Source of the DNA: Comamonadaceae bacterium
GTDB taxonomy: Bacteria; Pseudomonadota; Gammaproteobacteria; Burkholderiales; Burkholderiaceae_C
DNA length: 64,000 bases
Direction: 5' to 3'
Assembly (NCBI GenBank): GCA_947373245.1
Contig: CANBWY010000001.1
Span: forward strand, 43,944-107,943
The notes beneath the pieces are model-generated. The model was given only the letters and a program-made list of their open reading frames with translations. It was not told the DNA's origin and made no database searches. A program made the position numbers and the translations under genes. Of this stretch, positions 12,576-15,583 are shown piece after piece. Numbering within the stretch: position 1 is the stretch's first letter; each line of letters starts with the position of its first letter.

Positions 12576-13457
12576 CTAGGCCACTTCGCGCTTGGCGCGA
12601 AACACCTGTGTGTCTTCGTAAAACGCCCGCTCGGCGTTCGCGGGCCACCAGCCGGGCACGCCCAACACGGGCAAGGGTTCGTAGGGCTTGGTGGCCAGCT
12701 TAGCGGGTTGCAAGTCTTGCACCAGCCAGGCATCCAACGCAGCTTCATCGTGCGGGTTCACATCATTCGCCAGGCGATACACATGGCCCGTGATGGACTT
12801 GTAAGGCGTGACGAGTTTTTCAAGCAAGGCATGGCCAAACAACACAAGGTGCACGTGCTGCCATCGCGCGCGCAAGTCGACAAAGAGTGTGAGCCAATCA
12901 CGTGCTTGCAATGCGGCCCACACGTCATCAGGCGCATGCATGAGGACGACGTTTTCATCAAACAAGGTGAGTGCGTCGCGCACGGGGCCGCGAGTGGCGC
13001 GAATGCCTTGGGATTCAATTTCCGCGGCTTGCAATTGGTTCAAGCGATGTTTGGCGCGTGGGAAGCGGTGCCAGCACAGGCCGTTGAAGAAGTCGTGCAG
13101 ACCGTCTCTTGTGGGGACTTGGGCCGTTTTAAAAATGAAGTCTTCGTAGGCTTGGTTCTCGGGCAATGCGGCCTGGGGAACGAACTTCACCTCTTTGACA
13201 ACGCCAAGCGCGAGGGGCGCACTGTTCGTGCTCATACTCGCTTCGCTCGCCAAATCGCCCGAGCCAGTGCCCCTCTCTCGCTTGGCTGCGTGCGTTATTT
13301 TATTGAGCGCTTGGGCCACATTGTGCTGTTGCAAGGCTTGCATTGCGATCGGTTCGCCTAAGTCGCGCCACGGGGTGAACCACGGCTGCGACCAATCAAT
13401 GTCGGCCAACACGGCCCCTGCAAAGCCCTCAGTTTGCAAGCTTAAACCACGCGCCAA
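12576..13457 (-). CDS. DUF3025 domain-containing protein
   Basis: ...[56 protein letters not shown]..., ...[54 protein letters not shown]. Confidence 0.85.
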
Positions 13458-14485
13458 GGCAAGGCCTCGCCAGAGCGCAAAGGCTTCAACTCAGCTTCAC
13501 CAAAGGCAAAGCTCTCGGGTGGTGTCCAGCTCTCGCGACGCAACGTGAGCGTGCCGGTGTTGCGTGGCAGACCGTAGAAGTCGGCGCCGTAGAAACTGGC
13601 GAAACCTTCGAGTTTGTCGAGCGCGCCTGCGTTGTCAAACGCTTCGGCGTACATGGGCATGGCTGCGTGTGCGGTGTAGCAACCAGCGCAACCTGTGGCG
13701 TGTTCTTTCAGATGGGCGGGGTGTGGTGCGCTGTCGGTGCCTAAAAAGAATTTAGGCGAACCGCTGATAGCCGCTTTCACCAACGCTTGGCGGTGGGTCT
13801 CGCGTTTGAGCACAGGCAAACAGTAGTAATGCGGGCGAATGCCGCCCGTGAAAATGGCGTTGCGGTTGTAAAGCAAATGGTGCGCGGTGATGGTGGCGCC
13901 CGTGTACTTGTCGCTCGCAGCCACGTAGTGCGCAGCTTCGGCGGTGGTGATGTGCTCAAACACAATTTTGAGTTCGGGAAAGTCTTTGCGCAGCGGAATG
14001 AGCTGGGTATCAATGAACACGGCCTCGCGGTCAAACAAGTCAATGTCGGGGCTGGTCACTTCACCGTGCACCAACAGCAACATACCCGCCTTTTGCATGG
14101 CTTCAAGTGTTTTGTAGGTTTTACGCAGATCGGTCACGCCGGCATCGCTGTTGGTGGTGGCACCGGCTGGGTAGAGCTTGGCGGCGACCACCCCTGCGTC
14201 TTTGGCGCGGACGATTTCGTCGGCGGGCAAGTTGTCGGTGAGGTAGAGCGTCATCAAGGGCTCGAAGTGCACGCCCCCCTCGGCATTTTTGGGCACAGCG
14301 GCCAAGATGCGTTGTTTGTACGCCAGCGCCTGCGCCGCCGTAGTGACGGGCGGCCTGAGGTTGGGCATGATGATGGCGCGGCCAAATTCGGCGGCGGTGT
14401 GGGGCACCACGGTGTTCAGTGCAGCGCCGTCGCGCACGTGCAGGTGCCAGTCATCGGGTCTTGTGATGGTGATTTCTTGCGTCAT
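13442..14485 (-). CDS. pyrC: Dihydroorotase
   Basis: [47 protein letters not shown]...[15 protein letters not shown]. Confidence 0.97.
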
Positions 14486-14520
14486 GCTGTTGATTGTCTT
14501 CGGTTTTTTTGCTGAGCTCG

Positions 14521-14598
14521 CTGCGGGCGGAGGCAGTGGGCAGGTTCCTCATGCTGGGGTACCAGAAATCGTCACCTGCCCACTGCCTCCACCCACAG
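14521..14598. repeat. Long intergenic hairpin A (17-bp perfect stem, extendable to 25 bp with 2 mismatches; 28-nt loop)
   Basis: GGAGGCAGTGGGCAGGT (14529-14545) pairs exactly with ACCTGCCCACTGCCTCC (14574-14590). Confidence 0.9.
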
Positions 14599-14730
14599 AC
14601 TGCGGCTGACAGAAGTTAGATTGGGACATTGGTATGCCAACAAGGCATCTGCAAAGAGAGTGACTGTTAGCCTGCAGCTAGCGCTAGTCATCGCATATGT
14701 GAACTAAAAATAGTTCAACCTGAAACAGTT

Positions 14731-14802
14731 GCGCAGCTTGGGTGCGGCGGCTGGCGATTTCTGGTACCCCAGCATGCGTCAGCCGCCGTACCCAAGCTGC
14801 GT
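14731..14802. repeat. Long intergenic hairpin B (about 22-bp stem with one G.T; 26-nt loop)
   Basis: CGCAGCTTGGGTGCGGCGGCTG (14732-14753) pairs with CAGCCGCCGTACCCAAGCTGCG (14780-14801). Confidence 0.9.
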
Positions 14803-14828
14803 AGCCCCATCCGGCGAGAAAACAAAAA

Positions 14829-15566
14829 TCAATGCGCCAAGATTTTGTTCAAGAACTCTTTGGTGCGCGGTTGACGGTTTTCGGGGTGGTTGAAGAACTC
14901 GTCTTTTGAGCAATCTTCCAACACCTTGCCGCCCACATCCATGAAGATCACGCGGCTACCGACTTTGCGGGCAAAGCCCATTTCGTGCGTGACGCACATC
15001 ATGGTCATGCCCTCGTTGGCCAAATCCACCATCACGTCCAGCACCTCGCCTACCATCTCGGGGTCGAGTGCCGAAGTGGGCTCGTCAAACAACATCACGA
15101 TGGGGTCCATGCTCAAGGCACGGGCGATCGCGACGCGTTGTTGTTGGCCGCCTGAGAGCTGGCCTGGGAACTTGTCTTTGTGCGCCATCAGGCCCACACG
15201 CTCTAGGTATTTCAAACCATGGGCGTGCGCTTCTTCTTCGCTGCGGCCCAACACTTTTTGCTGCGCGAGGGTTAGGTTTTCGGTCACCGACAAATGCGGA
15301 AACAACTCGAAGTGTTGAAACACCATGCCCACTCGGCTGCGTAGTTTGGGCAAGTCGGTATCTTTGCCGTGCACCGCAATGCCATCTACAAAAATCTCAC
15401 CTTGCTGAAAAGGCTCCAAGGCGTTGATGGTTTTGATGAGCGTGGATTTGCCTGAGCCAGAGGGACCGCAGACCACCACCACTTCGCCTTTTTCAATCTT
15501 AGTGGAACAGTTGTTCAGCACCTGCACGGGGCCGTACCACTTAGAAACATTTTTTAATTCGATCAC
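14829..15566 (-). CDS. gltL: Amino acid (glutamate/aspartate-type) ABC transporter ATP-binding protein
   Basis: GTG start [52 protein letters not shown]...[19 protein letters not shown]. Confidence 0.92.
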
Positions 15567-15583
15567 AGCAAACTCCAACGCAT

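Follow-up and report, generated by a model that had tools for sequence, protein, structure and literature searches.

Twin hairpins beside pyrC belong to an apparently new family of short DNA insertions, known to date only from a single bacterial family

The two long hairpins that lie between pyrC and a gltL-like gene in the 64,000-nucleotide stretch of Comamonadaceae DNA analysed here (the window) constitute one copy of a family of short DNA insertions that has apparently not been described before and that is known to date only from a single bacterial family. Members of this family have been inserted at the pyrC locus, have multiplied in one genus, carry a constant tip, and are under a strand-specific structural constraint at fixed loci. 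We consider them, with a probability of about 0.6, to be non-autonomous paired palindromic elements, similar to REPINs and MITEs and confined to one family of the Burkholderiales, whose tip would be recognised in the form of a folded single strand. What normally identifies a dispersed palindrome in bacteria is the conservation of its sequence. This family, with its nearly free stem, keeps only its composite tip, its stem length, and its pairing on one strand, at fixed loci across species.

The two hairpins and the exact inverted match of 22 nucleotides are present where the original prediction placed them (Table 1). The sequence CATGCTGGGGTACCAGAAATCG is found at 14550-14571 (+) and at 14755-14776 (-) with 0 mismatches between the two, while 100 shuffles yielded 0 matches at up to 3 mismatches. 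Both stems were likewise confirmed, with longer arms than had been given: hairpin A has 25 nucleotides per arm (92%; arms 14521-14545 and 14574-14598) and hairpin B a computed 33 (85%), a figure that includes part of the loop. On the strands that read CGATTT, hairpins A and B had folding z scores against shuffles of -7.8 and -9.6. At up to 3 mismatches this genome has 11 occurrences of the loop, many of them arranged as inverted pairs and carried by different stems, so that the two hairpins represent one member of a family. The loops do match as claimed, but they do so because both hairpins have the same tip, once in each direction; the complementarity follows from this inversion, and it is the individual hairpin, not the loop pair, that matters here. 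Hairpin A would act as the minus strand and hairpin B as the plus strand, both reading outward, an assignment that follows from the bias of G.U over A.C pairs described below. The flanking gltL-like gene has its best NCBIfam match to GlnQ (E 6.8e-90), yet this match stays under the curated cut-off.

Table 1. Features of the pyrC-gltL locus, in window coordinates
Feature	Position	Strand	Basis or remark
Inserted segment with both hairpins	14503-14827		Between pyrC and gltL-like gene; empty sites in G064 and G052
Hairpin A	14521-14598	- (putative folding strand), reads CGATTTCTGGTACCCCAGCATGAGG	R1 model, 88 bits; fold; G.U/A.C bias
Hairpin A tip (complement strand of the loop first described)	14550-14571	-	CGATTT, inner stem CTGG-CCAG with TACC loop, CATG
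Spacer between hairpins A and B	14599-14727		Weakly conserved
Hairpin B	14728-14805	+ (putative folding strand)	R1 model, 80.1 bits; fold
Hairpin B tip, CGATTTCTGGTACCCCAGCATG	14755-14776	+	22-nucleotide match to hairpin A tip
pyrC (dihydroorotase), flanking gene	13442-14485	-	TIGR00856, 456 bits
Amino-acid ABC transporter ATPase (gltL/glnQ-like), flanking gene	14829-15578	-	Start taken from the submission; reading frame open as far as 15644

Since gltL and pyrC nearly abut in relatives, about 325 bp has been inserted at this locus, and the insertion separates the gltL-pyrC gene pair. In two relatives (G064 and G052), the bases matching window positions 14502 and 14828 are joined with nothing between them, and the distance between the pyrC start and the gltL stop is 21 bp, against 346 bp in the window. 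With the gltL stop codon included, the distance from the pyrC start is 14 to 21 bp in six relatives and 259 to 443 bp in carriers of both hairpins. Four further genomes (G001, G029, G005, and G050) have one hairpin or remnants; across relatives the locus is thus found empty, full, with a single hairpin, or as a remnant. This loss of one or both hairpins argues against an essential host role at pyrC.

The main sign of recent multiplication comes from a genome of another genus (G142), where 62 matches form about 31 dispersed pairs with an offset that is nearly always 153 to 155 nucleotides. The twin-hairpin unit in that genome measures 232 bp, and its copies are 70 to 93% alike among best matches. 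Similarity mostly stops 2 to 5 bp outside the stems, with some copies sharing more flank. The suggestion of a 227-bp non-autonomous element with its ends buried in hairpins therefore came close, given the 232-bp repeated unit and the insertion of about 325 bp at pyrC. Bacterial MITEs (PMC10969869) are alike in being short non-coding units of constant layout that are multiplied in a genome, as in G142, where the unit ends at the stem bases in most pairs. The twin-hairpin unit differs from them in that its ends are long hairpins with an internal constant tip, that no parent IS was found, and that no target-site duplication was detected in 18 units, where the best repeats averaged 2.39 bp against 2.34 bp in shuffles. 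No autonomous copy or enzyme was found; the sequence between distant hairpins at two loci (L045 and L044) contains apparently ordinary cellular genes and no autonomous element, and recurrent ORFs beside hairpins look, by eye, like ordinary syntenic genes.

Further copies were recovered both with the 22-mer and with a covariance model built from 64 hairpins. The 22-mer has 11 matches in the window's genome at up to 3 mismatches (0 in a reversed control), which sit on differing, self-complementary stems, and it occurs in 19 of 85 genomes of the genus. With the covariance model, matches were obtained in 39 of these 85 (26 hairpins in G028 and about 16 in the window's genome) and in 49 of 251 sampled genomes, or 32 of 126 sampled genera, of the family. 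None was seen in other families among the genomes of the order that were sampled, nor in the plasmids, phages, and viral contigs searched. Database records with the motif, among the matches listed, belong mostly to Limnohabitans, Rhodoferax, Polaromonas, and other Comamonadaceae/Burkholderiales. One record titled Chitinophaga pinensis also carries the hairpin (L102, CALPRQ020000031.1) and is probably a mislabelled or contaminated bin. At gathering and relaxed thresholds, Rfam gave no match above threshold at the hairpins, where the relaxed search returned only weak long-hairpin matches far under the cut-offs. Its matches in the window are RNase P and a Betaproteobacteria toxic small RNA (RF02278; 27608-27667, +; 56.4 bits), both away from the hairpins. 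A literature search for the motif itself found no description, and a broader one gave REP and MITE work only.

The hairpins combine a constant tip with a stem of almost free sequence. Each consists of the stem (mostly 24 to 30 bp, mode 27), a C-G pair, an internal loop CGATTT/YATGAG, and a small inner stem-loop, so that the constant part on one strand is a tip of about 25 nucleotides that reads CGATTT, a small covarying stem-loop, and YATGAG. Within the internal loop, G.A, A.G, and U.U pairs may form and stack, judging from the sequence. In the window's genus, most inner stems are CTGG/CCAG around a TACN loop, whereas elsewhere other pairing sequences take their place, among them GTGG/CCAC, CGGG/CCCG, and CTG-CTCG-CAG; the inner stem reaches at least 3 bp in 36 of 42 distinct inner sequences, versus 8.8 expected. 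The ATG of the tip was considered as the start of a leader peptide and dropped, the frames in the g46 copies being interrupted when read by eye.

Covariation, a check named at the outset, is seen both in the long stems and in the inner stem of the tip. Stem cells are paired in 92.2% of cases versus 58.2% after shuffling, with 675 versus 185 two-sided changes; among orthologues, double changes kept pairing in 203 cases and broke it in 8, and single changes that kept pairing through G.U numbered 362, against 31 to A.C. These compensatory-change counts are pairwise and so are not phylogenetically independent. On the CATG strand of 249 hairpins, the non-Watson-Crick stem pairs comprise 395 A.C and 53 G.T, and the A.C excess therefore corresponds to G.U on the complementary strand. 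Counted over the 89 different hairpins from orthologous loci, G.U outnumbers A.C by 144 to 16. It is this predominance of G.U that names the strand that folds. The stems of the two hairpins had been called unrelated, which is not simply so, as the stems found at one locus in different species are orthologous and carry compensatory changes.

Selection on the hairpins is apparent at fixed loci. From 6-kb regions of seven genomes we obtained 13 orthologous loci, plus one in the window's own genome only. At five loci, substitutions per site were 0.013 to 0.175 in hairpins, 0.21 to 0.30 in spacers, and 0.23 to 0.33 in flanks; the hairpins were almost gap-free, and orthologous hairpins evolved 1.2 to 20 times more slowly than their own spacer. 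Single hairpins are conserved at several loci as well. A purely selfish element would not ordinarily be conserved so strongly at orthologous loci. The neighbour genes (pyrC, polA/thrB, glyA/nrdR, ppc/glk, panC/gpsA, and others) have no evident common pathway.

Possibly, a protein recognises the folded single strand, as single-stranded DNA or RNA, through the geometry of the tip together with stem length. The same putative protein might multiply the unit, which would travel as a non-autonomous passenger; a protein of this kind would account for hairpins staying under selection. We slightly favour action at the level of DNA, because hairpins with a folding strand antisense to both neighbour genes share the bias of sense hairpins (52:6, with orientation taken from home-made gene calls) while the spacer is unconserved. 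More tentatively, and with distinctly less confidence than in the element itself, we suggest a dedicated, family-specific recognition in which the CGATTT/YATGAG tip would be read in single-stranded DNA of a defined strand, whatever the sequence of the long hairpin that bears it; the hairpins would then be stem-independent, orientation-bearing chromosomal sites and would in addition have spread in the form of mobile twin-hairpin units. In G028, about 10 of 12 single, unpaired hairpins have their folding strand directed toward the replication origin, as do 7 of 9 in G030 and 7 of 10 in G001 by our own scoring, but this replichore bias is suggestive only: the genomes have loci in common, one locus is close to the terminus, and the comparison was conceived after the data had been seen.

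The strongest competing view, which we regard as possible but doubtful, is that of a structured RNA of ancient spread and present-day cis-regulatory role: a read-through transcript from either direction would end with one correctly oriented hairpin, on which an RNA-binding protein would act to affect UTR stability or termination. G.U-tolerant pairing on one strand is a classical sign of RNA, the stems covary, both hairpins are predicted to fold strongly as RNA, and many loci lie, by the same home-made gene calls, between convergent genes, near stop codons. The bias of antisense hairpins, the lack of conservation in the spacer, which is the expected place of a promoter, the absence of a shared pathway among the neighbour genes, and the absence of an Rfam family speak against it. 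Mutually exclusive folds, which had been proposed for such an RNA, find no support in the predicted minimum-free-energy structure of a 329-nucleotide RNA, which retains both local hairpins and contains no loop-loop helix.

Mobilisation as REP/REPIN sequences by a resident RAYT (Y1 transposase) seems improbable. GTAG and CGTC REPs with their dimers (PMC3733652) and REPINs (PMC3116915) resemble the present family in their intergenic palindromes, frequent inverted dimers, some intragenic copies, and lineage-specific expansion; the pairs of the present family consistently have the same arrangement, and a Y1_Tnp gene is present, mostly as a single copy, in 68 of 85 genomes of the genus. As described there, REPs and REPINs share their whole sequence, whereas the present family combines a composite tip that stays constant with a stem that is free to vary, shows compensatory changes between orthologues, and has no tag, no RAYT link, and stems two to three times longer than the 5 to 13 bp of GTAG REPs or the 8 to 9 bp of CGTC REPs, among which RPE-4 and RPE-6 are classed (PMC3733652). 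No tag reaches a majority of the 308 hairpins, GTAG being found at 8 + 8 feet and CGTC at 4 + 0. By our own count, Y1_Tnp genes occur in 38 of 49 hairpin-positive and 151 of 202 hairpin-negative genomes of the family, and two genomes (G151 and G179) have hairpins without Y1_Tnp. In 20 loci the Y1_Tnp gene is not flanked by hairpins, the nearest lying about 4 kb off, and the inverted repeats near these genes differ in sequence from the hairpins.

An invertible segment or recombination cores, as suggested by identical inverted 22-mers on both sides of a spacer, is very improbable: hairpin A lies on the pyrC side in all orthologues with both hairpins, no inversion was seen, and single hairpins are conserved at several loci. 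Unrelated terminators or repeats with loops alike by chance, to which stable, G+C-rich hairpins near stop codons might point, can practically be dismissed given zero chance matches in shuffles, a whole family of copies, and no T-run past the hairpin on the folding strand; a lack of conservation with coincidental loops is excluded.

In integron attC sites, too, one strand folds and structure outweighs stem sequence. The paired palindromic elements described here share these traits and differ in that the constant part is the tip and not the base and that no cassette arrays or attC boxes were recognised. Rickettsia palindromic elements are likewise palindromic repeats able to sit within coding sequence, but no kinship with them in sequence or tip is known. 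Hairpin pairs about 1.7 to 2 kb apart occur inside UvrA-family ORFs of 1,826 to 2,329 amino acids in two genera (L298:3842-10831, -; L297:4532-10012, +; L311:3034-9360, +), between ATPase modules according to our reading of match positions. The family amounts to a natural covariation experiment on folded single-strand recognition, with the tip as bait for finding the factor.

Triple hairpins within about 400 bp, with folding strands -,+,+ or -,-,+, are present at five loci (L042, L069, L072, L074, and L082). A gene beside the purN hairpin (L182:3072-3629, -) partially matches IscB/Cas9d models, far below their cut-offs. Some tip hairpins are nested within a longer palindrome, GGGGTCAGATCAACATTAATTT...AAATTAATGTTGATCTGACCCC (L044:5640-5790, also L075 and L097), which is similar to the inverted repeats (GGGGTC/AATTAATT) found close to Y1_Tnp in L319 and forms a composite repeat.
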